Shown: positions 19,459 through 33,297 of the stretch, piece after piece
Layout of the letters: every line of letters begins with the position of its first letter
Numbering within the stretch: position 1 is the stretch's first letter
The notes under the pieces: model-generated
What the model was told of the DNA's origin: nothing
Seen by the model: the letters and a program-made list of their open reading frames with translations, nothing else
Databases searched by the model: none
Program-made: the position numbers and the translations under genes
From: a virus
DNA: 37,827 nt
Direction: 5' to 3' (one strand)
Virus record (IMG/VR): IMGVR_UViG_3300043410_000509
Span: 1-37,827 of that record

Positions 19459-19490
19459 AGATTTGAAAAATATTTTTGAAGGAGTTAAAA

Positions 19491-19829: not shown

Positions 19830-19834
19830 AAAGA

Positions 19835-19863: not shown

Positions 19864-19877
19864 AAGAGGAGACTTCC

Positions 19878-19919
19878 ATGAAAAGAGTGACAACTGCAAT
19901 TGTCAAAAGGATTGTATGA
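19878..19919 (+). CDS. 13-aa leader ORF coupled to the primase-helicase
   Basis: ATG 19878 follows AGAGGAGA and the frame ends at TGA 19917-19919, overlapping the primase-helicase ATG (19916) as ATGA. The peptide is 13 aa, basic and hydrophobic (MKRVTTAIVKRIV). Its good ribosome-binding site and exact stop-start overlap suggest a leader whose translation delivers ribosomes to the large gene. The primase-helicase also has its own AAAGGA, so the leader may not be essential. Confidence 0.5.
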   Translation: MKRVTTAIVKRIV

Positions 19920-22399
19920 CAACGAACCCATCAGTACAAGCGCACCCAGCATCAATCGATGCGTACATCAGACACGGCTGGTCACTTGTTCCCATCCCCG
20001 CAGGAACTAAGGGACCACGCACACCCGGCTGGAATTTAAAGCCCAACGCGCTTAAGTCACAGGCCGATTTACCACAGGGCAATGGCATCGGTTTGGCTCA
20101 TGCTTACAGCGGCACGATGGCACTTGACATCGATGACTGGGACACCACGGCCATGCTGCTCGGGTTACAAGGCATCGACATTCAAGCGCTCTACAACGCC
20201 AACGATGCAGTCATCATCGACAGTGGGCGTGCGGGTCACGGCAAGCTGCTTTACGCGATGCCTTTAGGGCTGGCGCTGCCATCGAAAAAGATCATTACCA
20301 ATGGGGAAACTACTTACGAGTTGCGCTGCGCCACGGCCAACGGGTTGACGGTACAGGATGTGCTGCCCCCATCGATTCACCCTGACACCAAGCAGCCCTA
20401 CTGCTGGGCAGGCAAAGGCCACTGGATGCGCTTGCCCACAATCCCACAGCCCCTGCTTGATCTATGGCAGGGCATGATCGATCAGGACAAGGTTCGCAGC
20501 ATCAGCACAGGCGATGCGGTTGACGCATCATGGGACGAGATTCGCAACGCCATCGAGTGCATCAATCCAAGTTGTTCACGCGAGGAGTGGATCAGCGTAG
20601 GCATGGCCCTACATTGGGCTGGCACGCAGAGCGAACAACTCGATCAGGCGTACCACCTTTGGCAAGAGTGGAGCGCACAAAGCGAAGCCAAATATCCCGG
20701 CGACCGTGAGATCGCGCATCAATGGTTGTCGTTCAAAACTGACAAGGCTACCGCAGTCAAACTAGGAACCCTTTTCCACATTGCACGCAAGTCCGGCTGG
20801 ACGCGCCCGATGCCCGATGCGACATCGCTGTTTGCTGCTGTTGACACCGCACCCGTTGCACCCAAGGACATCATGGCTGGTCTGCGCCCTGCGCCACCGG
20901 ACATGGACATAAGTGTTTTCCCTAGTATCTTGCAAACCCGTGCGAATGAGATCAGCGACAGCGTGGGGTGTGACCCACTCGTGCCCTTGTTTGCTGGTTT
21001 AAGCGCGGTCTGCGGGGTGATTGATGCCCAGATGAGGCTTGAGTTGATGCCGGGCTTCAAAGTGCCCCCAGTGCTTTGGTTGATGACCTTGGGCGACCCC
21101 GCTGACAAGAAGTCACCCGGTTCACGCCCCATGCTGGCCCCGCTCAAGAATTTGGAAGCCGAGGACCGTCCACGCTACCAAAAGGAACTGCTCGACTGGG
21201 AGGGTAAAGAGGCAGCGTATGCGTCAGCCAAGAAAACATTTTTAGAGTGGTCCGCATCACCTGACGCCATCCTCGGTGGCGATCAAGCACCCGTGGTTCC
21301 AGAGATGCCACCGCAGCCCGTGCCAGTCAAGATCACAGTCAGCGACATCACCAGTCAAAAGTTGGTGCGCCATGCGTCCGAGCGTCCCCGTGGCCTGCTG
21401 TGCCACCTTGACGAGATGAACTCATGGGTGCGTAAGTTGACCGACAAGACCAGCGGCGAGGATCGCTCTGCGTGGGTGGTGTCTTATGAGGCCGAGCGGT
21501 ATGAGATGGACCGTGTGGGCGCGGGGTCGATCCACGCTGAGAACTTGGCCGTTTCGATCTACGGGAACATCCAGCCCACAGTTTTCAGGCAAAGCATTGC
21601 CTCTCTTGCAGCGGATGGCCTGTTGCAACGATTTATACCAGCAATTCTGCGCGGCAACAAAACGCGCCTTGGTCACCCTATCCCCGAGTACCTGACAGCG
21701 GCTGCTGCGTGGGAAAACACGCTGCGCTTGACCTTCGCGCTGCCACCCCAGACGTACAAGTTATCCCCAGAAGCATTCACAGCTTATCGTGAGTTCCAAT
21801 CATGGTACGAAGGGGCCAAGCAGGATGAGCGGCTGCTGCACTCAGGTGACGTGTTTATGACGGCATTCGGCAAGTTGGAGGGCACAGCGGGTCGATTGAT
21901 CTTGCTGTTCCACGTCATTGAAAACCCGTTCAATCTGATCGTGGCCGAGGATGTTGTCCACAGGGTGATCGCATTTATCAAGGGTTACCTGATCCCAGCG
22001 TATCGCTATGCGTTTGGTGAGGTGGGTGGCACAAACACATTCGATGTGTGGGTTACGGACTACATCATTCACCACTGCGACAAACAGACGATCACGCTGT
22101 CAGAGATTAAGCGCGGTGGGCGCAGACAGTTCGATGGTATAAGCCCGTGGCAGCAGGACCAGTGGGTGCTCGGGGCCATGCAGATGCTGGAGACTGCCGG
22201 GTGGGTGGTTCGCATGGATGACGGCACACGGGAGAACCAGCACCATGCACAGTGGGCCATCAACCCTGCACTGGCGACACAGTTTGCCGAGCACCGCAAG
22301 CAGGTGATTGCGGCCAAGCAGCGCCAGCTTGACGACATCTACAAACTCAGCACCAAAGGAAAGCCCCGTGTGTACGGGGCCGATGAGTTGGATGAATAA
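19916..22399 (+). CDS. Primase-helicase: prim-pol domain fused to DUF3987 ATPase
   Basis: The protein is 827 aa. The N-terminal prim-pol domain (about 10-190) has hhhDhD as LDIDD (D71, D73), SGRAGH (S103-H108), TYELR (E135, R137) and the family's VLPPSIHP...YCW. A PriCT-type helical domain follows (about 203-295; SREEWISVGMALHWAG). The C-terminal DUF3987 domain (about 320-770) has GDPADKKS (393-400) in the Walker A place, LDEMNSW (D499, E500) as Walker B and YGNIQP. The Walker A lacks the usual Gly before Lys. It should synthesise primers and unwind DNA at the fork for the family B polymerase. It lies alone between a terminator on each side. Confidence 0.88.
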   Translation: MTTNPSVQAHPASIDAYIRHGWSLVPIPAGTKGPRTPGWNLKPNALKSQADLPQGNGIGLAHAYSGTMALDIDDWDTTAMLLGLQGIDIQALYNANDAVIIDSGRAGHGKLLYAMPLGLALPSKKIITNGETTYELRCATANGLTVQDVLPPSIHPDTKQPYCWAGKGHWMRLPTIPQPLLDLWQGMIDQDKVRSISTGDAVDASWDEIRNAIECINPSCSREEWISVGMALHWAGTQSEQLDQAYHLWQEWSAQSEAKYPGDREIAHQWLSFKTDKATAVKLGTLFHIARKSGWTRPMPDATSLFAAVDTAPVAPKDIMAGLRPAPPDMDISVFPSILQTRANEISDSVGCDPLVPLFAGLSAVCGVIDAQMRLELMPGFKVPPVLWLMTLGDPADKKSPGSRPMLAPLKNLEAEDRPRYQKELLDWEGKEAAYASAKKTFLEWSASPDAILGGDQAPVVPEMPPQPVPVKITVSDITSQKLVRHASERPRGLLCHLDEMNSWVRKLTDKTSGEDRSAWVVSYEAERYEMDRVGAGSIHAENLAVSIYGNIQPTVFRQSIASLAADGLLQRFIPAILRGNKTRLGHPIPEYLTAAAAWENTLRLTFALPPQTYKLSPEAFTAYREFQSWYEGAKQDERLLHSGDVFMTAFGKLEGTAGRLILLFHVIENPFNLIVAEDVVHRVIAFIKGYLIPAYRYAFGEVGGTNTFDVWVTDYIIHHCDKQTITLSEIKRGGRRQFDGISPWQQDQWVLGAMQMLETAGWVVRMDDGTRENQHHAQWAINPALATQFAEHRKQVIAAKQRQLDDIYKLSTKGKPRVYGADELDE

Positions 22400-22425
22400 A
22401 GGGGGCACTGGCCCCCTTTTTTTTT
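22398..22425. terminator. Terminator between convergent genes
   Basis: AAAGGGGGC pairs with GCCCCCTTT around the loop ACTG, followed by T to 22425. It ends the primase-helicase transcript. Read from the other strand it also has a T-rich end (CCCTTTATTC), so it probably stops the leftward accessory transcript too. Confidence 0.88.
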
Positions 22426-22495
22426 ATTTGAAGTAAATCAACAAGATCATGCACACTGCGAACAGGCCCATGAGGTCTTCGATTAGTTCAGTCAT
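22424..22495 (-). CDS. 23-aa putative membrane micropeptide
   Basis: ATG 22495 overlaps the TGA of the 168-aa gene (ATGA) and has AAGGAG eight bases upstream. The frame stops at TAA 22424-22426 in the terminator T-run. The 23-aa product is acidic at the start (MTELIEDL), then hydrophobic (MGLFAVCMILLIYF) with a terminal Lys. The strong ribosome-binding site and exact overlap argue for translation. It is the last gene of the accessory operon. The function is unknown; single-helix micropeptides can modulate membrane proteins or exclusion. Confidence 0.55.
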   Translation of the reverse strand: MTELIEDLMGLFAVCMILLIYFK

Positions 22496-22998
22496 GTGTT
22501 CTTCTCCTTGAGTTTAACTTCTGACCTGCGAACAAGTGTGACCAAATCAGCATCAGTCAATCCAAAGCCATCGCCTGTTGGTTCCACATAATCGTCATCA
22601 TCCTCATCACCTCTGCCATTGATAAATAGATTGATTTCCTCATCCGTCAGCCCAACCCATGTGCGTTGTTGTGGTGTGGTGTAGAGGTCAGAGACTTGTT
22701 CTTGGTAGTAATCGTGCGCTCGACCCAATTCGTAACGAATGTAATCCCACCACCAACCCACATTTCCACCGCCGTAATCATTAAGCAAACCAGCGTCATA
22801 CTCAGCCAAATTCACAGGCGCACCCTGCTCTTGCTTGGCTAGTGCTTGGCAAGTGTCGTCAATAAGTTGTTCAAACTTTGCTCTTGTTTCGTCAGACTTT
22901 TTGTTTTGGCTAACAAACTCATGATCTGCTTGATACCAATAGTCTTGTCCCAGTTGAAACGCTCGTTTAAGCGCCAGCTTCATTGCTTCTTTACTCAT
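22492..22998 (-). CDS. Hypothetical acidic protein (168 aa)
   Basis: The protein is 168 aa. The N-terminal half is helical and basic (KLALKRAFQLGQDYWYQAD), the middle has a Trp/Tyr-rich segment (GGGNVGWWWDYIRYELGRAHDYYQEQ), then WVGLTDEEI, a motif that recurs in many small phage proteins, followed by an acidic run DEDDDD. WVGLTDEE-type segments often mark modular early phage proteins of unknown function. It is joined to the upstream gene by an ATGA overlap. Confidence 0.7.
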   Translation of the reverse strand: MSKEAMKLALKRAFQLGQDYWYQADHEFVSQNKKSDETRAKFEQLIDDTCQALAKQEQGAPVNLAEYDAGLLNDYGGGNVGWWWDYIRYELGRAHDYYQEQVSDLYTTPQQRTWVGLTDEEINLFINGRGDEDDDDYVEPTGDGFGLTDADLVTLVRRSEVKLKEKNT

Positions 22999-23195
22999 GC
23001 ACCCTCCAATGTCTTTTCAAGGCGAGTAAGTGCTTTGTCCCACTGCTCAAAGTCGGCCATGTTTTGCAAAGCACCCACCATTGTCTTGGCGGCTTGGGCT
23101 ACCTTTTCCAGTCGGTCGTTGCGTGCGCGTAGCAGGCGGTTCTCGGCTTCGCATTCGGCCAGTGCCAAGTCTAGGTTGCGTTCGGTTTCGTTCAT
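22995..23195 (-). CDS. Coiled-coil hypothetical protein (66 aa)
   Basis: The protein is 66 aa and almost entirely one helix with heptads (LALAECEAENRLLRARNDRLEKVAQAAK). It overlaps both neighbours by ATGA. Similar short coiled-coil phage proteins are common and unassigned. It could dimerise with itself or another operon product. Confidence 0.65.
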   Translation of the reverse strand: MNETERNLDLALAECEAENRLLRARNDRLEKVAQAAKTMVGALQNMADFEQWDKALTRLEKTLEGA

Positions 23196-23290
23196 AGCGG
23201 TGCGTCCTCAAAGTTGTCAGGGTTGAACTTGGGCACTTTTGTGCCCTTGTCGAGTGGGTTGGGGAATGGGGGAAAGGGCCAAGTGTTCAT
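23192..23290 (-). CDS. 32-aa Pro-rich small protein
   Basis: This short gene fits between its neighbours exactly: ATG 23290 overlaps the preceding stop (ATGA) and its own TGA overlaps the next start (ATGA at 23195). The 32-aa product is Pro/Asn/Phe-rich (MNTWPFPPFPNPLDKG, then KVPKFNPDNFEDAPL). GAGGTGAAG upstream is a fair ribosome-binding site. Double-ended overlaps make chance unlikely. No family was recognised. Confidence 0.6.
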   Translation of the reverse strand: MNTWPFPPFPNPLDKGTKVPKFNPDNFEDAPL

Positions 23291-23505
23291 GCTTCACCTC
23301 TTGCTCGGATTGCCGCTATGCAACCATTGACCGAATACATTTCGCCTTTGACTTGCTGACACACCTTTGCACACGCCTCACGCTCTTTAGCTGCTACCAG
23401 TTTGGCAAAGGTCATGTATTCATGGATACACCATTGGCTTGGCTCAAAATCCGTATCAACCAAGCCAGCCTGTCTAGCCATCTCAATGATTTCATCTTGT
23501 GTCAT
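23287..23505 (-). CDS. Conserved-type small phage protein (72 aa)
   Basis: ATG 23505 overlaps the upstream stop (ATGA) and is chosen over longer in-frame starts. The 72-aa product begins MTQDEIIEMARQAGL and ends with the FAKLVAAKEREACAKVCQQ segment and AIRARGEA, a pattern repeated in a very common family of tiny phage proteins. The paired Cys near residues 48-52 are family-typical. The function is not known. Confidence 0.72.
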   Translation of the reverse strand: MTQDEIIEMARQAGLVDTDFEPSQWCIHEYMTFAKLVAAKEREACAKVCQQVKGEMYSVNGCIAAIRARGEA

Positions 23506-23726
23506 TGCATCTTCTCCTGTAGTTCGGTTGGGTCGATCATCATCATCTGTTGAAAGTACACCGCGAAGCTGGCGCGTGTGTCGTTCTCGAAGGGCATCAT
23601 GTTCACACGGGTCATGGCTTCTTGCATGGCGCTGTTCCACCCGCTCACGAATACAAACTTCGCTGCGTCTTGAGGGTTCAGGCCAAGGTCGCCATAGAGG
23701 CGGTCATAGTGTTCTAGTGCGTTCAT
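23502..23726 (-). CDS. Small hypothetical protein (74 aa)
   Basis: The protein is 74 aa with ribosome-binding site AAGGA about 11 bases upstream. It is helical: LEHYDRLYGDLGLNPQDAAKFVFVSGWNSAMQEA, then a Met-rich tail (YFQQMMMIDPTELQEKM). The GWNSA segment recalls the C-terminal part of the common AA-E-REAC phage family encoded next door, so the two may be related modules. The stop overlaps the following gene by ATGA. Confidence 0.65.
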   Translation of the reverse strand: MNALEHYDRLYGDLGLNPQDAAKFVFVSGWNSAMQEAMTRVNMMPFENDTRASFAVYFQQMMMIDPTELQEKMQ

Positions 23727-23798
23727 TGGTTGGATTCCTTAGTGGTTGGTTGGGTTGTATATCCCGAGTGAAATTGAAACGGGGTCGATTGACATGAC

Positions 23799-24059
23799 TC
23801 AATCGGTTTTTGTTTTCGATGGTCGCCCGCGCTTGCCCGCAACTTTGGGTTCACTGGGCGCGGGCAAAAAAGAATTGTGAAGCGCGGGGTTCATAGCTTC
23901 GACCATGCCCAGCACCTCGAGCAGTCGGGCAACGGCGGCGGTCGGTTTGCGGTCACCCGCTGCCCATTTGCGAAAAGTAAATACGGGCACGCCCAGATAT
24001 GCGGCGGCTTGGGATTCGTCAAGATTTAGGCGGCTTTGTAGCGATTTAAATGGATTCAT
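23799..24059 (-). CDS. HTH (XRE/YdaS-like) regulator with AT-hook-like tail
   Basis: The protein is 86 aa. Residues about 5-52 form a helix-turn-helix domain: LNLDESQAAAYLGVPVFTFRKWAAGDRKPTAAVARLLEVLG, the layout of Cro/CI or YdaS-like regulators, with recognition helix VFTFRKWAAG. The C-terminus has KRGRPSKTK, an AT-hook-like GRP core that could hold the DNA minor groove. The gene follows a terminator by about 20 bases and lacks a clear ribosome-binding site, so expression is probably low. It is the best candidate regulator for the ACCCACGGGGT sites in the control region, but nothing in the sequence proves it. Confidence 0.72.
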   Translation of the reverse strand: MNPFKSLQSRLNLDESQAAAYLGVPVFTFRKWAAGDRKPTAAVARLLEVLGMVEAMNPALHNSFLPAPSEPKVAGKRGRPSKTKTD

Positions 24060-24081
24060 AGGGTTGGGCTTTCAAAGGGTC

Positions 24082-24111
24082 AAAAAAGCCCCTAGAAACG
24101 CGTTCTAGGGG
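24082..24111 (-). terminator. Leftward rho-independent terminator inside the accessory operon
   Basis: CCCCTAGAA (24089-24097) pairs with TTCTAGGGG (24103-24111) around ACGCG. On the minus strand the stem is followed by CTTTTTT. It would stop transcripts coming from the genes to the right just before the HTH gene. Confidence 0.85.
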
Positions 24112-24118
24112 TGCTGGG

Positions 24119-24181
24119 TTACAGGTCTAAAAGGTAAGCGATTAGGGCGGCGATTATTAGGGCGGCTATCCCTGCAATCAT
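24119..24181 (-). CDS. 20-aa hydrophobic micropeptide
   Basis: ATG 24181 overlaps the TGA of the 59-aa gene (ATGA), and GAGG lies upstream. The 20-aa product is almost wholly hydrophobic (MIAGIAALIIAALIAYLLDL), enough for one membrane helix. The TAA lies eight bases before the terminator stem. A toxin-like, holin-like or regulatory membrane peptide is possible. The overlap geometry and composition support a real gene, but the length makes it uncertain. Confidence 0.5.
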   Translation of the reverse strand: MIAGIAALIIAALIAYLLDL

Positions 24182-24357
24182 CTTCGCGCCTCACTGCGCC
24201 CGATGTCGATTAGGCGGCGGCACTCGGTGACATCTTTGGGGTTTTCGCTTGATAGCATGGCGCGGATATGTTGCGCCTCTGCCCTTGCTCGGTCGGGGTT
24301 TGTGGCGCGTTCATACCGGCGCCCCGCTTCGATGTATGCGCTTTCGGTGTGGTTCAT
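24178..24357 (-). CDS. Small hypothetical protein (59 aa)
   Basis: ATG 24357 overlaps the previous stop (ATGA) and the stop overlaps the micropeptide start. The product is 59 aa, Arg/Glu/Ala-rich and helical (AYIEAGRRYERATNPDRARAEAQ, ECRRLIDIGRSEARR). The AGRRYERA type of segment recurs in small early phage proteins. No function is known to me. Confidence 0.62.
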   Translation of the reverse strand: MNHTESAYIEAGRRYERATNPDRARAEAQHIRAMLSSENPKDVTECRRLIDIGRSEARR

Positions 24358-24527
24358 TGCAACACCTCGACAACGCGTTCAATGTGCCAGTCGTCACCAT
24401 CGACAGATTTTTCAAAAGCCCCGCCGTCGAGTCCTTTTGCCAATTGATATGCTCGCTCGTCGTTTTCTGCCTCAATGACAACTTGACAATAAGTGACATA
24501 ACTTGCTGTTACTTTATAAGTTTTCAT
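24354..24527 (-). CDS. Small DpnD/PcfM-like fold protein (57 aa)
   Basis: ATG 24527 overlaps the preceding stop (ATGA) and its stop overlaps the next start. The 57-aa product has the pattern of tiny plasmid and phage proteins with two strands, a helix and two strands: MKTYKVTASYVTYCQVVIEAEN, DERAYQLAKGL, then DWHIERVVEVLQ. This resembles DpnD/PcfM-type proteins, whose role is unclear. The family call is tentative. Confidence 0.6.
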   Translation of the reverse strand: MKTYKVTASYVTYCQVVIEAENDERAYQLAKGLDGGAFEKSVDGDDWHIERVVEVLQ

Positions 24528-24973
24528 AATTTCAGGCTTTCATTAAGTAAACATTGGGCGGTGTCAGTGTCACCCGTTGCGAGTGCATCAAGGGCGGCGC
24601 GGATTGTCTTTTTTAACCCTGCGACAGTTTGCGCGGGTTTCTTTGGTTTATTTAAAAACTCGGGCACATAGTCAGGGTTGACATCCTCGACACATTCAGG
24701 GATTGACGCATCAAGCATGGGCGCGGGTTTGTGATAGTTCTCGCAACTGTGCTCAATGCCGTGGTGCATTAAGCGGCTGTTCAAGCCATTAAACTGTGCG
24801 ACATATTCAGCGGTACTCATACCAATTTGAAAAGCGGGATATTGCCGCGCTAAATTCTTAGTGCTTAAAGCAACTGGTTTGTGCTTTTTAGGCTTTACCA
24901 ATGCGGCGCGGTACGCTTGGGCATTTTTTGGGTTTACTTTGTATTTTGTAGAGTCGTGGGTAAATTCGATCAT
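24524..24973 (-). CDS. Basic hypothetical protein (149 aa)
   Basis: ATG 24973 with AAAGGTG upstream is preferred. A longer frame to 25111 exists, but its first 46 codons are low-quality sequence overlapping the 53-aa gene. The 149-aa product has a Lys-rich N-terminal third (YKVNPKNAQAYRAALVKPKKHKP), a middle with paired His (LMHHGIEHSCENYHKP) that might bind metal, and a Lys-rich helix near the end (FLNKPKKPAQTVAGLKKTIRAAL). No known family. The basic character suggests nucleic-acid binding. It ends in an ATGA overlap. Confidence 0.62.
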   Translation of the reverse strand: MIEFTHDSTKYKVNPKNAQAYRAALVKPKKHKPVALSTKNLARQYPAFQIGMSTAEYVAQFNGLNSRLMHHGIEHSCENYHKPAPMLDASIPECVEDVNPDYVPEFLNKPKKPAQTVAGLKKTIRAALDALATGDTDTAQCLLNESLKL

Positions 24974-24996
24974 GTGGTCACCTTTTTGTGTTAGGG

Positions 24997-25043
24997 TGCA
25001 AGTTACTTTGTTAACTTGGAATGCGGCGTTGTAAGAACTTGCA
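24997..25043. repeat. Nested inverted repeat upstream of the 149-aa gene
   Basis: TGCAAGTT (24997-25004) is matched by AACTTGCA (25036-25043), and within it AAGTTA (25000-25005) by TAACTT (25012-25017). This lies in the about 90-base gap between the 53-aa and 149-aa genes. Two further TTGCAAG/CTTGCAA words occur at 25135-25141 and 25194-25200. It could be an operator or a small RNA hairpin. Confidence 0.4.
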
Positions 25044-25062
25044 AGAATCAAGGCCGTTGGGG

Positions 25063-25224
25063 TTAATTGGTTTGTGTTTGTTGAGTGATTTTTTCGAGTC
25101 GGTCGCGACAATCGATAATTGTGGTTCCCAAGTGTTGCAAGTCGTTGTAATTTTCAATGTCATAAACCAGCCCGTTTAACTGTTCCCATACAACTTGCAA
25201 AATGGCTTTTTCTTCATGTGTCAT
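25063..25224 (-). CDS. Small hypothetical protein (53 aa)
   Basis: ATG 25224 overlaps the upstream TGA (ATGA), with GAGGTGACC as ribosome-binding site. The product is 53 aa and helical, with MTHEEKAILQVVWEQLNGLVYDIENYNDLQ and a Gln/Thr tail. No motif was recognised. Its end is followed by the gap with the nested inverted repeat. Confidence 0.6.
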   Translation of the reverse strand: MTHEEKAILQVVWEQLNGLVYDIENYNDLQHLGTTIIDCRDRLEKITQQTQTN

Positions 25225-25469
25225 GCGGTCACCTCGGTTTCTGTTTGTTGGGCACTGGTTGCCATTGAAATAATTATTTCGGCGATGTCATCCGCACCCC
25301 AATACTCAAAGGGTTGCCATTCAATCACGGAATATTCTTCAAACACGGCATCGCTTTCGCCGTATTCGCACTCGGTGAGTTTGTCAAACAGGGCGACACC
25401 ATCGCCCGTCCAGTCGCTCAAAACATGGCGAAGGGCAAACAGTTTCCATTTATCGTTAATCGTGGTCAT
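25221..25469 (-). CDS. Hypothetical acidic protein (82 aa)
   Basis: The protein is 82 aa, acidic, with many aromatics (WKLFALRHVLSDWTGDGV, YSVIEWQPFEYWGADDIAEIIISM). GGAGG lies upstream of ATG 25469. It sits between the NGWTNYATW-family gene and the 53-aa gene, three bases after the former. Acidic, small, early phage proteins often inhibit host enzymes, but no particular target can be named. Confidence 0.65.
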   Translation of the reverse strand: MTTINDKWKLFALRHVLSDWTGDGVALFDKLTECEYGESDAVFEEYSVIEWQPFEYWGADDIAEIIISMATSAQQTETEVTA

Positions 25470-25471
25470 GT

Positions 25472-25759
25472 TTAAACCTCCAACTCGTCGGCGTATGCCT
25501 CGATCATGTGCTTAGCAATTTCATGCCAGTTCACATCTTGCAAGAACGCCATTGCGTAATCCATGGCCAAACCTTGCGGAACGCTTGCACATTCAAAAAT
25601 AACTTGCTCGGCGTATTCTTTTATGCTTTCCGGTAGCCATTCCTCAATGTCAGACTGGTTATCGCTGAAATAGTCAAATGGGTCAAACCCGTCAAATATC
25701 TCAAGATTAACGCGCCATGTAGCGTAGTTTGTCCAACCGTTGTATGTGGTATCAGTCAT
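25472..25759 (-). CDS. NGWTNYATW-family phage/plasmid protein (95 aa)
   Basis: The protein is 95 aa. The opening YNGWTNYATWRVNLEIFDG is a hallmark of a widespread family of small phage and plasmid proteins (DUF7249-like, from memory). The remainder is acidic with Trp and Tyr (FDYFSDNQSDIEEWLPESIKEYAEQVIFE). Members are accessory genes in mobile elements and their function is not established; the strongly acidic surface would fit a DNA mimic, which is speculation. Translation starts in a leader-box copy (GGAGTAACTGTAATG). Confidence 0.72.
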   Translation of the reverse strand: MTDTTYNGWTNYATWRVNLEIFDGFDPFDYFSDNQSDIEEWLPESIKEYAEQVIFECASVPQGLAMDYAMAFLQDVNWHEIAKHMIEAYADELEV

Positions 25760-25772
25760 TACAGTTACTCCT
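25757..25772 (-). promoter_or_regulatory. Degenerate leader box, copy 4
   Basis: Minus-strand AGGAGTAACTGTAATG leads into the NGWTNYATW-family gene and shares the GGAGTAANNGTAATG consensus with the copies at 16420, 17229 and 26119. Confidence 0.6.
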
Positions 25773-25783
25773 AAAAATTACAG

Positions 25784-25927
25784 TTACAGGGAAAAGGCAA
25801 ACACAGTTAAAAGGTACAGGGCGACAGCCCCAACGAGTGCACCGCCGATTACTGCCCATTCGCTAGGCTCATCGGTGCTCAGTGGCTCGGGTGTGTAGTT
25901 TTCGCGGAATTTATCGAATGAGTTCAT
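25784..25927 (-). CDS. 47-aa single-pass membrane protein
   Basis: ATG 25927 overlaps the TGA of the 65-aa gene (ATGA). The 47-aa product has a soluble, acidic N-terminal half (FDKFRENYTPEPLSTDEPSE) and a C-terminal membrane helix at about residues 24-46 (AVIGGALVGAVALYLLTVFA). No signal peptide is apparent, so it would be tail-anchored with the N-terminus inside. It may be a host-modulating or superinfection-exclusion peptide; this is inference from topology. Confidence 0.6.
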   Translation of the reverse strand: MNSFDKFRENYTPEPLSTDEPSEWAVIGGALVGAVALYLLTVFAFSL

Positions 25928-26121
25928 AAATTCACCGCCTTTGCAAAGTTAGGCGCTTCGCCGTTGTACATGGCAACTCTAAACGAGTGCCAACCTTGAG
26001 CGGAGGCGGCGGCTTTTACTTTCTCGATGTCGCTAGGTGTGCGACAGTTTGTTGCCAAAAGCGTTTCCATATAATCACGGGTTTCGCCTTTTTCCAAGCC
26101 ATAAATCAAAATTTCACGCAT
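25924..26121 (-). CDS. First gene of the accessory operon, hypothetical (65 aa)
   Basis: The protein is 65 aa with a mixed fold: MREILIYGLEKGETRDYMETLLATN, then helix PSDIEKVKAAASAQGW and strand FRVAMYNGE. Small phage and plasmid proteins of this type often stand beside the NGWTNYATW family; no function is known. It lies immediately downstream of the consensus promoter at 26155-26182 and starts in the exact 20-base leader shared with the SSB gene, so it should be transcribed and translated strongly and early. Confidence 0.72.
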   Translation of the reverse strand: MREILIYGLEKGETRDYMETLLATNCRTPSDIEKVKAAASAQGWHSFRVAMYNGEAPNFAKAVNL

Positions 26122-26138
26122 TACATTTACTCCTTACT
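26119..26138 (-). promoter_or_regulatory. Repeated translation-initiation leader box, copy 5
   Basis: Minus-strand AGTAAGGAGTAAATGTAATG ends in the start codon of the 65-aa gene and is identical over 20 bases to the SSB leader at 17229-17248. Confidence 0.75.
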
Positions 26139-26154
26139 GGTTGATGATGTCTCT

Positions 26155-26182
26155 ATTATATACCCCGTGGGTCATTTGTCAA
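26155..26182 (-). promoter_or_regulatory. Consensus sigma70 promoter for the leftward accessory operon
   Basis: On the minus strand TTGACA (plus 26177-26182) and TATAAT (plus 26155-26160) are separated by 16 bases, a perfect match at both hexamers. It lies 34 bases before the 65-aa gene. An ACCCACGGGGT site fills the spacer and a second abuts the -35 box, so a bound protein would exclude RNA polymerase. Confidence 0.88.
26162..26172 (-). promoter_or_regulatory. ACCCACGGGGT operator site, spacer copy
   Basis: This 11-bp motif on the minus strand lies between the -35 and -10 boxes of the consensus promoter. It is one of six exact copies in about 860 bp. Confidence 0.75.
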
Positions 26183-26192
26183 CCCCGTGGGT
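26182..26192 (-). promoter_or_regulatory. ACCCACGGGGT operator site, upstream copy
   Basis: This second exact copy is 20 bp from the spacer copy and shares its last base with the first T of the -35 box. The two-turn spacing puts both sites on the same face of the helix, which suits cooperative binding. Confidence 0.75.
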
Positions 26193-26203
26193 GCATTTAT
26201 TTT

Positions 26204-26734
26204 CTAGGTGCTTTCCCTAACCCCGTGGGTTAGTTTATACATAAGTACCGCCGCGTCCCGTTCTTCACTACTCGCAAAATAACCCAAGTGTTTTGTCTTT
26301 GCGCCCTCACGCACCACGGCGCGGAATGGTTTCCTATCGGCGCGGGGTGCACGCGCCACAGTTTCACCCGTTCGCAAATAGTGAAGCACAATCGACGCGC
26401 TAACAATTCGCCCGCGCCAAAACACCCGCGACCCAACGGGTATAAATTCATCTCGAATGGTTGTCGAACCATCGGCGGCAAAAGTTCGCCATGTTTCGCG
26501 GCGCATCAAGCGCCCGTCGCGCTCTACCAATTCAAACCCCAACCGCTCGGGCTTTCTAATCTGCGGTTTCTTTTCCCGTGGTTTACGATCGACTGGTTGA
26601 GCGTAAACCACGGGTTCGGGGATGCCCAACAATTCCCGCAACTTTGAATCGGGCAATGCGTCGAGTGTGTCAAAGTCATACGCGCTCAACTCGGGCAACT
26701 CAAAAGCGCGGTTTACAAGTTCTTCATGTGTCAT
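26204..26734 (-). CDS. AP2-like DNA-binding protein, possibly a degenerate HNH endonuclease
   Basis: The protein is 176 aa. Residues about 140-170 (FRAVVREGAKTKHLGYFASSEERDAAVLMYKL) look like the AP2/ERF-type DNA-binding domain that ends many phage HNH homing endonucleases. Upstream, VGSRVFWRGRIVSASIVLHYLRTGE resembles the strand-helix segment preceding HNH cores, but no HNH catalytic His-Asn-His is present. It could be a decayed homing nuclease kept as a DNA-binding regulator. The N-terminal third is acidic, and a basic middle (RKPREKKPQIRKPERL) is encoded by a 13-bp inverted repeat. It stands alone between two groups of ACCCACGGGGT sites. Confidence 0.6.
   Translation of the reverse strand: MTHEELVNRAFELPELSAYDFDTLDALPDSKLRELLGIPEPVVYAQPVDRKPREKKPQIRKPERLGFELVERDGRLMRRETWRTFAADGSTTIRDEFIPVGSRVFWRGRIVSASIVLHYLRTGETVARAPRADRKPFRAVVREGAKTKHLGYFASSEERDAAVLMYKLTHGVREST
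26220..26230 (-). promoter_or_regulatory. ACCCACGGGGT site inside the 3' end of the AP2-like gene
   Basis: This exact copy in the same orientation as the promoter pair codes for Thr-His-Gly-Val near the C-terminus of the 176-aa protein. It may be a third operator or a coincidental coding copy. Confidence 0.5.
26575..26614. repeat. 13-bp perfect inverted repeat within a coding region
   Basis: CCCGTGGTTTACG (26575-26587) and CGTAAACCACGGG (26602-26614) flank a 14-base loop. A stem this long inside a gene should be strong in mRNA. Both arms contain CCACGGG, partly resembling the ACCCACGGGGT motif. Confidence 0.75.
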
Positions 26735-26937
26735 TGGTTTCCCCTTTGGTCAGTGTTTCCATGTTACCACAATTCTGCAAGGGTGTGACAAAGTTTCTTG
26801 TAGAGGGGTAAAAGGATTCGAGGATTCAAAAAATAAGTGCTTTTGAAAAAGTCGTACTATTTTTGCCTATCGCGCGGAGGAACATTGGCGCAGTGATGCA
26901 CAAATGCGGAAACATGGAAACAAACCCCGATTCACCG

Positions 26938-26948
26938 ACCCACGGGGT
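26938..26948 (+). promoter_or_regulatory. ACCCACGGGGT site, right group
   Basis: Exact 11-bp copy on the plus strand, opposite in orientation to the promoter-associated sites on the left of the AP2-like gene. No promoter hexamers are evident around it. Confidence 0.6.
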
Positions 26949-26989
26949 AAACGTATCACGCCGCATCGATTGAACCAATAGACGCAATG

Positions 26990-27020
26990 ACCCACGGGGT
27001 CACCAGTAAACCCACGGGGT
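26990..27020 (+). promoter_or_regulatory. Pair of ACCCACGGGGT sites with 20-bp spacing
   Basis: Exact copies at 26990-27000 and 27010-27020 reproduce the spacing and orientation of the pair at the consensus promoter, here pointing rightward towards terminase. Where the left pair encloses TTGACA and TATAAT, this pair has TCACCA and no -10, so it is either a promoterless operator pair or uses another factor. Confidence 0.7.
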
Positions 27021-27191
27021 CGGGCGTCTGCGTGCCGTGGTGCTCGGCGCTCGGCGTCCCGCGCCGCCGGATTCGCCCGCGATTCTGGATTCCGGATTCA
27101 GGACACATGGGGTGGGTGGGGTCCCGCGACCCTCCGGTCCCGGCGACGGCGGTATCGCGAACAATTTTTTATTTTTTCAAATTAACCCTAG

Positions 27192-27202
27192 ACCCACTGG
27201 GT
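27192..27202 (+). promoter_or_regulatory. Variant ACCCACTGGGT site near the terminase leader
   Basis: This is a one-mismatch copy of the 11-bp motif followed directly by TCACA, as the promoter copy is followed by TGACA. It lies 64 bases before the small terminase start and may mark the late promoter region, although no good -10 box is seen at the right distance. Confidence 0.4.
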
Positions 27203-27265
27203 TCACATAACTCCCATGATTCCTTTTCACCACGCAACACAAACCTGTGGTAGATTCACAGCACT

Positions 27266-27835
27266 ATGGAAACAAGGCAAACCTCATCCGTAGGCGCAGT
27301 TGTCACACCCGGCCAAGTTGACGAACTCGACAACCTCGAATTGCCCCAGTGGCTTTCTGTGCCTGATCCCAAGCCGCTCACCCCGAGCAAGGTGATGCGT
27401 GAACTCGTCCATGCTCAATACGAAAACATCTTCGAGCGTGTCATCGAACAGATTTACCGTGGCCGCTCCCTTGCATCGCTGCTCGATGATGACCATCGGG
27501 AGATCAGCTACGAGGGGTTTTTGCGCTGGGTCAAGCGTGACCCGATGCGCCATGAACGGTTCAAAGAAGCACAGGAGAACCGCTCCGAGTTCATCGCTGG
27601 CGAGATTCTCCAGATTGCCGATGCCGAGGACTCCATAGAAGATGTGCAACGTTCAAGATTAAAGATCGACACTCGCAAGTGGCTGATGTCCGCTTGGAAC
27701 AGAAAACGCTACGGCGAGACCAAGACGCTTGAGATGGCTGGCTCGATCTCGATTACGAATGCGCTGGCTGCGGCCCGTGAGCGCATGATCGAAGCAGAGG
27801 TGGTTGACGTGACACCGAAAGAGCTGGACAACTGA
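27266..27835 (+). CDS. Terminase small subunit (Sf6-like type)
   Basis: The protein is 189 aa and helical. The C-terminal segment RLKIDTRKWLMSAWNRKRYGETKTLEMAG is the usual end of small terminases of the Sf6/terminase-5 kind. The middle YEGFLRWVKRDPMRHERFKEAQENRSEFIAGEILQIAD is characteristic of the same class, where residues around 70-100 include a helix-turn-helix-like DNA-recognition part. It recognises the packaging site and hands DNA to the large subunit encoded next, whose start overlaps its stop. The ribosome-binding site is weak. It is the first late gene after the control region. Confidence 0.85.
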   Translation: METRQTSSVGAVVTPGQVDELDNLELPQWLSVPDPKPLTPSKVMRELVHAQYENIFERVIEQIYRGRSLASLLDDDHREISYEGFLRWVKRDPMRHERFKEAQENRSEFIAGEILQIADAEDSIEDVQRSRLKIDTRKWLMSAWNRKRYGETKTLEMAGSISITNALAAARERMIEAEVVDVTPKELDN

Positions 27836-29376
27836 TGCAACGCCCCATTTACTCGCCTGAAGAAGAACAACTGCTGATGACGCAGCTTTGGTCTCCGCAG
27901 ATTGCGGATGACCCTGAGAACTTCGTCATGTTCTGTTTTCCGTGGGGGCAACCCAACACACCGTTGGAGAAATTCAAAGGACCACGCGCATGGCAGCGTC
28001 GGGCACTCAGGCGCATCGCCGAGTTCATCAAAGCCAACAAGAACAAACTGAACAATGACGAGTTGATCGATGCGCTGCGCCGTGCCGTATCGTCTGGTCG
28101 TGGTGTGGGTAAGTCGGCACTCGTGTCGTGGCTGATCCTGTGGATGCTGACAACTCGCATCGGCTCGAGCGTGGTCGTGTCGGCCAACAGCGAGACACAG
28201 TTGAGAACGGTTACATGGGGTGAGTTGACCAAGTGGGCCACGATGGCGATGAACTCGCACTGGTGGGAACCATCGGCCACAAAACTCGCGCCAGCATCGT
28301 GGCTGACCGATCTGGTCGAGCGCGATCTGAAGAAGGGCACGCGCTACTGGGGAGCCGAGGGCAAACTGTGGAGCGAGGAGAACCCAGACGCCTATGCGGG
28401 TGTGCACAACATGGACGGCATGATGGTGATCTTTGACGAAGCGTCGGGTATCCCAGACTCCATCTGGTCAGTGGCTGCGGGCTTCTTTACCGAGAACATC
28501 TTGGACCGATACTGGTTTGCGTTCTCCAACGGTCGTCGCAACACCGGGTACTTTTACGAAGCAGTCGATGGCAACAAGCGCGACTTTTGGGAAAGTGAAA
28601 AGATCGATGCGCGGACCGTTGAGGGCACGGACAAGTCGATCTATGACCAGATCATCGCTGAATACGGCGAGGACTCCGACGAAGCGCGAGTCGAGGTGTA
28701 TGGCGACTTCCCCAAAAGCGGCGATGACCAGTTCATCATGCCATCGGTGGTGGACGACGCCATGAAGCGGGCCAAGTACAAAGACATGACCGCACCCGTC
28801 GTGCTCGGCGTTGACCCGGCCCGTGGGGGCATGGACTCCACAGTAATCGTGGCTCGGCAGGGGCGTGACATCTTGGCCATTCGCAGGTTCAAGGGCGACG
28901 ACACCATGACCACCGTGGGTCATGTGATTGATGCCATCGAGGAGTTCAAGCCGACGTTGACTGCCATCGATGAGGGCGGCCTTGGGTACGGAATACTTGA
29001 CAGGCTCACTGAGCAGAGGTACAAAGTGCGCGGGGTGAACTTTGGCTGGAAAGCCAAGAACCCTGTGATGTGGGGCAACAAACGAGCAGAGATGTGGGGC
29101 GCGATGCGCGAATGGTTGAAAACCGCATCGTTGCCGCAGGATCGACAACTGAAGGCCGATTTGGTTGGCCCGATGAAAAAGCCCAACTCGGCTGGCACGA
29201 TCTTTTTAGAGGGGAAAAAGGAAATGAAAGCCCGTGGTTTGGCATCTCCTGATGCTGCCGATGCGCTGGCCGTGACTTTTGCTTTCCCTGTGGCACATCG
29301 CGAGTACAATGATCGAACAACCCTGCGACGTAATGCTCAAAACAGCGGCGTCGCAACTTCATGGATGGGAGCATAA
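27835..29376 (+). CDS. Terminase large subunit
   Basis: The protein is 513 aa. The ATPase has Walker A SGRGVGKS (87-94) and Walker B MMVIFDEAS (196-204, D201-E202). The RNase H-like nuclease domain has D327 in GVDPARGG, D379-E380 in AIDEGGLGYG and D476 in SPDAADALAV, the acidic triad that cuts concatemeric DNA. It docks on the portal and pumps DNA into the procapsid. It overlaps the small subunit by one base and its TAA touches the next ATG. The packaging mode (headful or cos) is not decidable from this sequence alone. Confidence 0.95.
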   Translation: MQRPIYSPEEEQLLMTQLWSPQIADDPENFVMFCFPWGQPNTPLEKFKGPRAWQRRALRRIAEFIKANKNKLNNDELIDALRRAVSSGRGVGKSALVSWLILWMLTTRIGSSVVVSANSETQLRTVTWGELTKWATMAMNSHWWEPSATKLAPASWLTDLVERDLKKGTRYWGAEGKLWSEENPDAYAGVHNMDGMMVIFDEASGIPDSIWSVAAGFFTENILDRYWFAFSNGRRNTGYFYEAVDGNKRDFWESEKIDARTVEGTDKSIYDQIIAEYGEDSDEARVEVYGDFPKSGDDQFIMPSVVDDAMKRAKYKDMTAPVVLGVDPARGGMDSTVIVARQGRDILAIRRFKGDDTMTTVGHVIDAIEEFKPTLTAIDEGGLGYGILDRLTEQRYKVRGVNFGWKAKNPVMWGNKRAEMWGAMREWLKTASLPQDRQLKADLVGPMKKPNSAGTIFLEGKKEMKARGLASPDAADALAVTFAFPVAHREYNDRTTLRRNAQNSGVATSWMGA

Positions 29377-29526
29377 ATGCCACTCGTTAAATCACCCAGC
29401 AAAAACGCATTCCGTGCGAATGTAAAAGCTGAAGTCAAGGCCGGAAAGCCCGTAAAACAGGCCGTCGCCATCGCGTATTCTGTTAAGCGCGAAGCCCAAA
29501 AACCAGCCCCAAAAAGCAAAAAATGA
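29377..29526 (+). CDS. Small basic phage protein (49 aa)
   Basis: ATG 29377 directly follows the terminase TAA and the frame ends at TGA 29524-29526, overlapping the next ATG. The 49-aa product is very Lys-rich (MPLVKSPSKNAFRANVKAEVKAGKPVKQAVAIAYSVKREAQ, then KPAPKSKK). The KAGKPVKQAVAIAYSVKR core recurs in tiny proteins between terminase and portal in many podoviruses and siphoviruses. The charge suggests DNA binding. The function is unknown. Confidence 0.75.
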   Translation: MPLVKSPSKNAFRANVKAEVKAGKPVKQAVAIAYSVKREAQKPAPKSKK

Positions 29527-29768
29527 CTCTCAAGGCTAACCAAAACTGCGTCATCATCGAGCCGGATGTTGAGAAACACGAACTGTTCATCATCCCTCCC
29601 GGCGACAAATGTGAAACTGGCATCGTTGTTGCCATTGGCCCAAATTGCACAGATGTTGTGGTCGGTGACCACGTATACTTTGGCGTGGGTCAGGAATTTA
29701 AGTATGAGGGCAAAGAATATGTCGTCATGCGTGAACCCCACATCTTAGGAGTTTTGGAAAATGGCTGA
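29523..29768 (+). CDS. GroES-like co-chaperonin
   Basis: The protein is 81 aa. It keeps the Cpn10 barrel pattern: a first strand (NQNCVIIEPDVEKHELFIIPPGDK), then GIVVAIGPN, VVVGDHVYFGVG, and the ending FKYEGKEYVVMREPHILGVLE that mirrors GroES EEVLIMSESDILAIVE. The mobile loop is short and lacks the usual IVL tripeptide that binds GroEL, and the roof loop is reduced, as in some phage homologues. T4 gp31 and related proteins help host GroEL fold the capsid protein. It overlaps both neighbours (ATGA, and 8 bases with portal), so it is made with the head genes. Confidence 0.75.
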   Translation: MTLKANQNCVIIEPDVEKHELFIIPPGDKCETGIVVAIGPNCTDVVVGDHVYFGVGQEFKYEGKEYVVMREPHILGVLENG

Positions 29769-31962
29769 TCCAACAGGAATTACGGCTGCGGCTGCGGTCG
29801 CGGTAGGCGGTTCAACCAAGGACAAAAGCAACGCTGACGTTCTTGCCACCGCACGCACACGCCTTGATATGGCAATTTCGGCATTGTCCGAATCCCGTGA
29901 AGACGAACTCGACGATTTGCGATTTTACGCAGCGTCCCCAGACAACCAGTGGCAATGGCCCGCCGATGTGCTGGCAACCCGTGGCGCGGTGCAAGGTCAA
30001 ACGATCAACGCGCGCCCTTGTTTGACCATCAACAAGCTGCCACAACACGTTCACCAAGTCACCAACGAGCAGCGCCAGAACCGCCCGCAGCCCAAAGTCA
30101 TCCCCGCTGATGATGCTGCCGATGAAGAAGTGGCAGAGGTCTACAACGGCGTGATTCGTCACATCGAGTACATCTCTGATGCTGATGTGGCCTATGACAC
30201 AGCGTGCGAAAACCAAGTGGCATACGGCGAAGGTTATGTGCGCATCTTGACCGAGTATTGCGACGAAAAATCATTCGACCAAGACATCAAAATTGGCCGC
30301 ATCCGCAACAGTTTCAGCGTCTACATGGACCCGCTGATTCAAGACCCTTGCGGTGCAGACGCCGAATGGTGTTTTATCACCGAAGACTTGCCCCGTTCCG
30401 AGTACGAACGTCTGTACCCCAACGCTGTACCCATCACCACCTTGCAAACGCTGGGTGTCGGTGACCAAGAAATCTCTCAATGGCTCAACGAAGACACTGT
30501 TCGTATTGCCGAATATTTCTACAAAGAGTACACCAATGAAAAGCTGAACCTGTACCCCGGTAATGTGACCGCATTTGATGGCACACCCGAGGACAAAATG
30601 CTGAAATTGCAGTTCGGGTCACCTGTAAAAAGCCGTAAATCTGAGCGTTGCAAGGTCAAATGGCTCAAAATCAACGGTTATGAAGTGCTTGAGGAAGCCG
30701 ACTGGGCTGGCGTGCATATTCCTGTGATTCGTTGCGTTGGTAACGAATTTGAAGTCGATGGTCGCTTGTATGTGTCTGGTTTGGTCCGAAATGCCAAAGA
30801 TGCCCAGCGCATGTACAACTACTGGGTGTCGCAAGAAGCTGAAATGCTGGCGCTGGCCCCCAAAGCACCGTTCATCGGATACGGTGGTCAGTTTGAAGGT
30901 TATGAGATGCAGTGGAAGACTGCCAACACAACCAACTGGCCGTATTTGGAAGTCAATCCAGACGTCACAGACGGCTCTGGAGCCGTTCTTCCACTGCCAC
31001 AACGTGCACAACCCCCAATGGCCTCCTCGGGCCTCCTGCAAGCCAAGGCTGGCGCGTCTGATGACATCAAGTCATCGACTGGTCAGTACAACGCTGCGCT
31101 GGGCATGACATCGAACGAACGTTCCGGCAAAGCCATCTTGGCCCGCCAGCGTGAGTCCGACATCGGCACATACCATTACGTTGACAACTACGCCCGCATG
31201 ATCCGTTATGTTGGCCGTCAACTGGTCGATCTGATCCCCAAGATTTACGACACGCAGCGCGTGGCTCGCATCATTGGTGAAGATGGCGAGTCCACTACCG
31301 CCAAGATGAACCCACAACAGCCTGAAGCGGTCAAAAAGATCGTCAACGAGCAGGGCATCGTAATCGACAAGATTTACAACCCGTCCGTGGGCAAATACGA
31401 CGTTCAGGTCATCACTGGACCCGGCTACGCCACCAAACGCCAAGAGGCTTTGGAAGCAATGGCTCAGTTGTTGCAAGGCAACCCTCAATTGTGGTCCGTG
31501 GCAGGCGATTTGTTTGTCAAGAACATGGATTGGCCGGGCGCTCAAGAGATGGCGAAACGTTTTGCCAAGACCATCGATCCAAAGATTATTGGCGACGACG
31601 AAGACAACCCAGCGTTGGCCGCAGCCAAGCAGCAAATGGAAGCCATGAATCAAGAACTGCAACAAATGCACGGTATGCTCCAAAACGTGCAGCAGTCTTT
31701 CGAGGCCCGCGACATCGAGGTCAAGGAATACAAGGCTCAGGTGGACGCATACAATGCAGAAACGAACCGCATCAAGGCCGTTCAAGCAGGTATGTCGCAA
31801 GAGCAGATTCAAGACATCGTCATGGGCACGCTTCACGCCGCAATGGACAGCGGAGACATTGTTGCAGGCTCGCCAGAAATGCGTGAAAATCCAGCCATGC
31901 CGGAACCGGGTGAAATGCAACCCGAAATGCCAGAGCAATCAATGGGAGGTATGCCTCAATGA
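29761..31962 (+). CDS. Portal protein (P22 gp1-like)
   Basis: The protein is 733 aa (P22 portal is 725). The features are a helical N-terminus (TARTRLDMAISALSESREDELDDLRFYA), the family-typical QGQTINARPCLTINKLPQHVHQVTNEQRQNRP, a wing domain with GEGYVRILTEY and FSVYMDPLIQDPCGADAEWCF, a central helix in the ASDDIKSSTGQYNAALGMTSNERSGKAILARQRESD region, and a long C-terminal helix, Gln/Glu-rich from about 615 to 690, that could form a barrel inside the head. It is the dodecameric DNA entry channel. The last residues are Met/Pro/Glu-rich. Confidence 0.95.
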   Translation: MADPTGITAAAAVAVGGSTKDKSNADVLATARTRLDMAISALSESREDELDDLRFYAASPDNQWQWPADVLATRGAVQGQTINARPCLTINKLPQHVHQVTNEQRQNRPQPKVIPADDAADEEVAEVYNGVIRHIEYISDADVAYDTACENQVAYGEGYVRILTEYCDEKSFDQDIKIGRIRNSFSVYMDPLIQDPCGADAEWCFITEDLPRSEYERLYPNAVPITTLQTLGVGDQEISQWLNEDTVRIAEYFYKEYTNEKLNLYPGNVTAFDGTPEDKMLKLQFGSPVKSRKSERCKVKWLKINGYEVLEEADWAGVHIPVIRCVGNEFEVDGRLYVSGLVRNAKDAQRMYNYWVSQEAEMLALAPKAPFIGYGGQFEGYEMQWKTANTTNWPYLEVNPDVTDGSGAVLPLPQRAQPPMASSGLLQAKAGASDDIKSSTGQYNAALGMTSNERSGKAILARQRESDIGTYHYVDNYARMIRYVGRQLVDLIPKIYDTQRVARIIGEDGESTTAKMNPQQPEAVKKIVNEQGIVIDKIYNPSVGKYDVQVITGPGYATKRQEALEAMAQLLQGNPQLWSVAGDLFVKNMDWPGAQEMAKRFAKTIDPKIIGDDEDNPALAAAKQQMEAMNQELQQMHGMLQNVQQSFEARDIEVKEYKAQVDAYNAETNRIKAVQAGMSQEQIQDIVMGTLHAAMDSGDIVAGSPEMRENPAMPEPGEMQPEMPEQSMGGMPQ

Positions 31963-32324
31963 GCACCGCAGCAGATTTTGTAGGAACGTTGTTCCTTGCC
32001 CGTGACGTGGCGCATTCAGTGCATCTCAACACGCGCAGTTTTTCCAAGCACATGGCGCTAAATGCTTTTTATGACGGCATCATTGATCATGCTGACGCTT
32101 TTGCTGAAGCCTACCAAGGCCGTCATGGTCTAATTGGCCCCATCAGCTTGATGACGGCAAAGAAAACTGGCAACATCACGGAATTCTTGCAAGACTCATT
32201 GGCCGACGTCGAAAAAATGCGTTATGAGGTGTGCGATAAATCGGACTCGTCGTTGCAGCAATTGATTGACAATATTGTCGAGTTGTACTTGACCACACTT
32301 TACAAGCTAAAATTCTTGGCATAA
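31959..32324 (+). CDS. DUF5856-like ferritin-fold protein (121 aa)
   Basis: The protein is 121 aa and wholly helical. The start FVGTLFLARDVAHSVHLNTRSFSKHMALNAFYDGIIDHADAFAEAYQG has the H-x2-H, KH-AL and D-x2-D/AE pattern of DUF5856 proteins, which look like a four-helix ferritin/Dps-type bundle. Whether it binds metal is unknown. Such genes are found beside phage portal genes. It overlaps the portal end by 4 bases (ATGA). Confidence 0.7.
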   Translation: MSTAADFVGTLFLARDVAHSVHLNTRSFSKHMALNAFYDGIIDHADAFAEAYQGRHGLIGPISLMTAKKTGNITEFLQDSLADVEKMRYEVCDKSDSSLQQLIDNIVELYLTTLYKLKFLA

Positions 32325-32333
32325 GGAGCCATC

Positions 32334-32636
32334 ATGGAACTTTTACGACCTCTAGCCGATACTGATTTTCCAGCACGCACGGTGTCTTACACTGGCACTG
32401 CTGGCTCCACTTCGACGTGGAACCCCGGCCCCGAAGGTGTTGTGGTTTGGTCCACAACCCCTTGTTATGTGGCCGTTGGCGTTGGCGTAACTGCCACCAC
32501 ATCGAGCACCCCCATTCCCGCATACACACCTATCCCGTTTTACTTGGAACCCGGCTCTGGCGCACCTTGGCGTGTCAGCGCGATCCAAATCGCGGACGCA
32601 GGTTCGGTGTATTGCAAACCAATTAACATCCGATGA
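32334..32636 (+). CDS. Small virion-type protein (100 aa)
   Basis: The protein is 100 aa and beta-rich (YTGTAGSTSTWNPGPEGVVVWSTTPCYVAVGVGVTATTSSTPIPAYTPIP), ending with GSVYCKPINIR. The VVVWSTTPCYVAVG and Pro-rich parts recur in small phage proteins between portal and fibre genes, thought to be minor structural components. AAGGAG lies about seven bases upstream of the ATG. The stop overlaps the following gene by ATGA. Confidence 0.62.
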   Translation: MELLRPLADTDFPARTVSYTGTAGSTSTWNPGPEGVVVWSTTPCYVAVGVGVTATTSSTPIPAYTPIPFYLEPGSGAPWRVSAIQIADAGSVYCKPINIR

Positions 32637-32797
32637 GTTGGGGCGTTGGTCTTCGCAGTTCAGTAGCGATTGGCCTAGCAGGCATCGTTACTCTTTTTTC
32701 AGGCACTCGCGATAGCGGTGCCTCTGTCGGTAACTTGCTCTGTGAAAACGGTGACAACCTTGTGCAAGAAGACGGCGGTTTGATTCTTTTGGAGTGA
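32633..32797 (+). CDS. Small hypothetical protein (54 aa)
   Basis: ATG 32633 overlaps the preceding stop (ATGA). The 54-aa product has a Gly/Ile-rich hydrophobic segment near residues 10-22 (SVAIGLAGIVTLF) and ends with an LLCENGD, LVQEDGG and LILLE repeat, a repeat style (L-x-E-D/N-G-G) seen at the C-terminus of similar environmental phage proteins. It is followed six bases later by the fibre adaptor. The role is unknown; it may be virion-associated. Confidence 0.65.
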   Translation: MSWGVGLRSSVAIGLAGIVTLFSGTRDSGASVGNLLCENGDNLVQEDGGLILLE

Positions 32798-32802
32798 CCT
32801 AA

Positions 32803-33285: not shown

Positions 33286-33297
33286 TAAGGACCCATC

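Follow-up and report, generated by a model that had tools for sequence, protein, structure and literature searches.

In phage phi29, protein p4 represses the early promoters A2b and A2c, activates the late promoter A3 and works with the nucleoid protein p6 (PMC10899789). The antitoxin MqsA binds the operator ACCT-N3-AGGT, whose 3-nt spacer is free in sequence (PMC5422877). Aca proteins are small XRE proteins with an operon promoter that carries inverted-repeat operators (PMC9410906, PMC9410881). In class I activation by CRP, the position of the activator site shows a periodicity of approximately 10.5 bp (PMC6301791). The literature searched contained no equivalent of a multi-operator lytic switch.

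The locus described here can be compared with each of these. It lies in a window of 37,827 nucleotides (the whole stretch of DNA that was analysed), which is a 37.8-kb P22-like podovirus. Our main reading, to which we assign a probability of roughly two in three from sequence comparison, is that a small helix-turn-helix (HTH) protein represses an early promoter and activates a late one in the manner of phi29 p4. The likeness to p4 is one of layout, in which one small phage protein would repress an early and activate a late promoter from a single region; the difference is that the sites here are numerous short palindromes and that an XRE protein of the MqsA/HigA-like kind is the candidate, whereas p4 acts with p6. 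MqsA is the best profile match in the PDB, and its operator has the same length and the same free 3-nt spacer. However, the phage protein lacks the N-terminal toxin-binding domain, no toxin partner was identified, the base-contacting residues differ, and the sites form an array where MqsA has one or two. The locus resembles the Aca systems in its small XRE protein and inverted-repeat operators at an operon promoter, but no acr gene was recognised, and a further, phased site is present at a second promoter, the late one. As with CRP, a site is accepted at steps of about 10.5 bp from the promoter; the kind of protein is unrelated, and the positions here are about -45, -55 and -66 from the inferred start. 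The features concerned, in order along the window, are:

23799-24059, minus strand: 86-aa XRE/MqsA-like HTH protein, likely binder of the array (co-occurrence, profile, structure model)
24089-24111, minus strand: intrinsic terminator immediately before the HTH gene (hairpin search; also in relatives)
25924-26121, minus strand: small gene (65 aa, no family) that opens the leftward early operon (ORF, family search)
26155-26182, minus strand: early promoter TTGACA-16-TATAAT, with TTGACA at 26182-26177 and TATAAT at 26160-26155 (12/12 consensus)
26162-26172, minus strand: operator ACCCACGGGGT within the early promoter spacer (exact copy; spacer site also in relatives)
26182-26192, minus strand: operator adjoining the early -35 box, one T in common (exact ACCCACGGGGT)
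26204-26734, minus strand: HNH-endonuclease-like (AP2-like) gene inside the array, outside the switch in most relatives compared (weak PHROGs HNH match)
26220-26230, minus strand: operator upstream of the early promoter, within the 3' end of the HNH-like ORF (exact ACCCACGGGGT)
26431-26441, plus strand: ACCCAACGGGT within the HNH-like gene, possibly chance (palindrome count)
26938-26948, plus strand: array operator ACCCACGGGGT (exact copy)
26990-27000, plus strand: array operator ACCCACGGGGT (exact copy)
27010-27020, plus strand: array operator ACCCACGGGGT (exact copy)
27192-27202, plus strand: promoter-proximal operator ACCCACTGGGT, helically phased, centre 54 bp upstream of the late -10 (palindrome, phasing in relatives)
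27248-27256, plus strand: late promoter, extended -10 TGG-TAGATT (TAGATT at 27251) with a weak -35 (-10 and TGn kept in relatives)
27266-27835, plus strand: terS, which opens the late structural operon (Sf6-type TerS, PF20901, 71 bits)

The gene set of the window comprises a P22-type portal, an Sf6-type TerS, head closure, DNA ejection, an endolysin, a DNA polymerase, a helicase and a prim-pol. Among named phages, DSL-LC05 from Dishui Lake stands nearest to it (TerL 84%); a family 'Luchaoviridae' has been proposed for DSL-LC05 (PMC10611076). As to the host, DSL-LC05 carries the label Gammaproteobacteria and a prediction of Enterobacterales, and its TerL groups with that of Ralstonia/Liberibacter phages. 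Relatives were gathered by TerS and HTH searches of IMG/VR, yielding well over 100 loci. A scan of IMG/VR for the paired motif returned four contigs only, two of them true relatives (L007, L010) and two without terS (L008, L009). Rhodoferax phage P26218 has a gene order unlike that of the window. The TerL of OR850065.1, a 2.8-kb entry named Staphylococcus phage, matches the query in just the way that those of Salmonella P22-like phages do, and the entry is possibly mislabelled.

No integrase was matched among the window proteins searched (the small ORFs being covered in part), and no TerS relative was present in 84,980 bacterial and archaeal genomes, where no prophage relative was found. The phage is therefore probably strictly lytic, in agreement with the initial annotation, which saw no obvious repressor-integrase lysogeny module. 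Neither the integrase nor the prophage state that belong to a lambdoid/P22 lysogeny switch (cI/Cro with integrase) was thus encountered.

The palindrome ACCC-N3-GGGT has arms that are constant among relatives and a centre that varies (ACT, GCT, AGC, AGT, AAT, ACG and others). Dimeric DNA-binding proteins read such two-fold symmetry. The window contains eight copies, compared to 0.45 expected, and ACCC is its commonest half-site among 3-gapped palindromes with 4-bp arms; seven of the eight fall in the interval that separates the small-gene operon, which runs leftward, from the operon of terS and the structural genes. The initial annotation had listed three copies of ACCCACGGGGT, all exact at 26162-26172, 26182-26192 and 26220-26230, and was right that the second has one base in common with the -35 box and that the third lies 38 bp further. 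The genome scan with chance expectation that it called for gave six exact copies (0.01 expected), among them three plus-strand copies that had been missed (26938, 26990 and 27010), as had the ACCCACTGGGT copy at 27192 and the palindromy itself. Nor is the motif common elsewhere in the genome, all six exact copies falling within 26162-27020; a one-mismatch copy at 19839 belongs to an intrinsic terminator hairpin. The feature first noticed is thus genuine, and is one corner of a larger conserved hub of early and late control.

Sequence of 1.3 kb or more upstream of terS was available for 168 loci (some contigs enter more than once across searches), and 162 of these carry 3 to 11 copies there, with a median of 6. 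Array carriers that were searched whole have nearly all their copies in the hub (window 8, G001 7, G002 8, DSL-LC05 6). In DSL-LC05 (L074), an annotated CDS, WJZ48182.1 (3713-4078), covers the array and is probably not a real gene; the annotation of that genome starts terS at 4293, yet the conserved TerS start is at 4176. At 27105-27180 of the window, upstream of the proximal operator, there is a conserved G-rich block with a T-rich tract, the latter kept even in contig L072 (see below); an origin, an UP-like element or another signal are possible explanations.

The early promoter matches the consensus at 12 of 12 positions on the minus strand, as first claimed, and is the sole match above 9/12 on both strands of 18500-37827. 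Its spacer reads AATG-ACCCACGGGGT-A: the operator, described initially as filling the spacer exactly, is wholly inside it and leaves 4 bp before and 1 bp after. In 28 of 58 non-redundant relatives, a leftward TTGACA-16/17-TAnAnT promoter contains an operator in its spacer, compared to 2 of 58 on the opposite strand, which served as control. The remaining 30 divide into 20 without a promoter of at least 10/12, 9 with a promoter but no overlapping site, and 1 with an abutting site; the spacer operator is common among relatives, not universal. An operator placed within a promoter spacer must compete with RNA polymerase, and the 28 relatives support the earlier proposal that this strong promoter is under repressor control. 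The early operon genes searched gave one DUF7249 match and otherwise carry no functional assignment.

The late promoter is of another kind. A TAnnnT hexamer lies 8 to 11 nt upstream of the terS ATG in 57 of 58 non-redundant relatives, with TG in front in 43 of these 57, and the -35 is weak (mean best match 3.4 of 6, compared to 2.4 for random sequence), in contrast to the perfect early -35. In the window and in relatives, the ATG follows the -10 by 9 to 10 nt with no Shine-Dalgarno between (27248-27268; CACTATGGAACAAGG), and terS mRNA is therefore probably leaderless.

The position of the nearest palindrome relative to the late -10 proved to be strongly constrained. For all 50 relatives that have a proximal site within 60 bp of the -10, the palindrome centre was 31 to 34, 42 to 46 or 52 to 54 bp upstream. 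When the 60-bp limit was lifted, three further sites appeared at 75, 86 and 107 bp, likewise in step, and the three loci that lack a proximal exact copy gave distances of 183, 219 and 280. Degenerate sites, counted by eye, lie at about 34 and 53 in L098 and L103. The proximal distances had a Rayleigh R of 0.88 with a peak at 10.25 to 10.5 bp; under a uniform null, R reached 0.46 at the 99.9% level. As controls, the second site (R 0.27) and the inter-site distances (R 0.23) were not phased; the T tract beside the proximal site was partly phased (R 0.65). At least 30 changes of phase class occur on a tree of 69 terS sequences, and every one of them ends in phase; the naive probability of 30 in-phase changes is (10/24)^30 = 4e-12, and some of them could stem from recombination that exchanged promoters.

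The late operator overlaps neither the -10 nor a -35 spaced at 16 to 18 bp. Helical phasing indicates contact with something at the promoter but does not give its sign, such contact being able to repress too. Here the site moves relative to the promoter by whole helical turns only, which is a signature of polymerase contact, and the weakness of the late promoter suggests that this contact activates. The initial interpretation is supported for early repression, and had missed the phased late-promoter site with its predicted activation.

The HTH protein encoded at 23799-24059, a candidate binder from the outset, is likely to bind the array, which it tracks closely. Its family occurs together with at least three sites in 78 of the 79 terS-found contigs with enough upstream sequence; the other contig, L072, has neither. 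The gene is leftward in 152 of 152 cases and lies about 1.8 to 3.8 kb from terS. Five HTH-found loci (L098, L101, L103 to L105) have the HTH with few exact copies, and degenerate copies are visible in the three that were printed. The AlphaFold2 model has an XRE fold (block-mean pLDDT 91 to 96 over residues 1-60), and structure comparison placed HigA2 and MqsA near the top, with matches to Aca2, Aca10 and P22 c2 as well. With a family profile, the best solved relatives in the PDB were MqsA (E 0.0075 to 0.029); a single-sequence phmmer search of the PDB gave no significant match. The homology to MqsA is nevertheless weak, and we conclude from its sequence that the protein is not an MqsA, because it scores below the curated cut-offs (Pfam 20.5 bits compared to 30; NCBIfam 18.8 compared to 61.8) and because the base-contacting Asn97 and Arg101 are not kept, the aligned residues being F/Y and K. 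The array motif has a geometry like that of the MqsA operator, from which it differs by one base per arm.

A terminator-like hairpin precedes the HTH gene in 50 of 57 non-redundant relatives, with stem sequences that differ, and inspection by eye found no promoter of the gene's own downstream of the terminator. Such a terminator would delay or limit the regulator until early transcript accumulates.

Natural loss or swap of the HTH was seen in two cases only. L072 keeps the primase (65%), TerL (84%) and TerS (64%), yet has neither HTH nor array; these proteins therefore do not track the motif, and the HTH does. TerS and primase, both retained there, are disfavoured as binders. The same hub region of L072 contains AACATC-N11-GATGTT four times, and GATGTTTCTA/TAGAAACATC arms flank its early promoter; L072's own regulator was not found. 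A leftward gene at 3386-3955 of this contig encodes a short product resembling the DNA polymerase III beta clamp (PF02767). In MW202483 (L075), a small protein with a DnaA C-terminal domain (1510-1806) stands at the place corresponding to the HTH, and six GTTTACRTAAAC palindromes all lie in the equivalent hub region (4639-5010).

The gene at 26204-26734, proposed at first as an AP2-like candidate regulator, is HNH-endonuclease-like and probably not the regulator. The ORF is inside the array in the window and in a few relatives, and is absent from most of those compared; the relatives printed without it have a compact array. As the array is present without the gene, its product was rejected as the binder. 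Relatives of the protein, 38 to 52% identical, occupy the same region of L083, L192 and L103.

Taken as a switch, the approximately 1.1 kb at 26.1-27.25 kb would form a divergent hub, flanked on the left by the early operon and on the right by the late operon of terS and structural genes. After infection, the consensus promoter at 26182-26155 would fire early, and its transcript would cross the small genes and then partly pass the terminator into the HTH gene. The MqsA-like XRE protein would bind ACCC-N3-GGGT, probably as a dimer; as it accumulates, it would fill the operators in and next to the early promoter, turning this promoter off. At the proximal site, a whole number of helical turns from the equivalent positions in relatives, it would touch RNA polymerase at the weak extended -10 promoter and turn on terS and the structural genes. 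For the remaining array copies, cooperative loading is a guess. The sites, where they lie, their helical phasing, their linkage to the HTH gene and the terminator are observed, whereas binding by this protein, the sign of its action at either promoter and the timing are the predicted parts of the scheme. It is the helically phased late-promoter site that indicates activation as well as repression.

The HTH protein might instead act by repression only, shutting the early promoter and keeping the late one silent, through contact or looping, for as long as it is neither diluted nor inactivated. The operators do overlap the early core promoter, the XRE gene ends an operon of small unknown genes, and Aca2 and Aca10 are among the structural matches; Aca families repress acr operons (PMC9410906). 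However, the late site is clear of the -10 and of a -35 spaced at 16 to 18 bp while shifting by whole helical turns, and the late -35 is weak, as expected for an activated promoter. Since the operators are not phased to one another (R 0.23), looping is disfavoured, and looping phased between operators was rejected. We consider repression only to be unlikely.

It is quite improbable that the array is mainly a replication origin, with plasmid-like iterons for an initiator and a secondary overlap with promoters. Many non-coding repeats do lie beside the conserved T-rich tract and G-rich block, and the HTH is replaced by a DnaA C-terminal-domain protein in MW202483, but L072 keeps its prim-pol at 65% though the motif is gone, and an origin predicts neither the placement in the promoter spacer nor the phasing to the -10. 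The array might nonetheless serve in both replication and regulation. Phages often use host factors, and a host regulator that senses host state could bind the array in place of a phage protein; the joint presence of array and phage HTH in 78 of 79 contigs, and their joint absence in the other, makes this very improbable. We give hardly any weight to packaging (pac) signals bound by TerS: the sites are directly upstream of terS, yet the TerS of L072 (64%) is as close as, or closer than, that of many array carriers (53 to 69%) in the absence of the motif, and neither the early-promoter site nor the phasing would be predicted. Some copies are inside the HNH-like gene and the region is G+C-rich in relatives, but a chance or compositional repeat devoid of regulatory role has a practically negligible probability, with eight copies compared to 0.45 expected and phasing besides, and is already refuted by the conservation of the array in relatives.

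Extended to the clade, the proposed switch leads to a broader statement that we place at even odds: freshwater lytic podoviruses would use an MqsA-type, antitoxin-like repressor that is also a class-I-like activator, working through an operator array, and some relatives would have swapped protein and motif together while keeping the hub (the DnaA-domain protein with GTTTACRTAAAC, another protein with AACATC-N11-GATGTT). The hub of these relatives would then show a phage master regulator swapped along with all its sites. For a large group of uncultured phages, the locus provides a testable regulatory logic that names two promoters, an operator and its likely regulator. The 10.5-bp steps of the proximal site are a natural, evolutionary counterpart of the classic CRP spacing experiment, and in phages not yet grown the phasing offers evidence, drawn from comparative genomics, for an activator.
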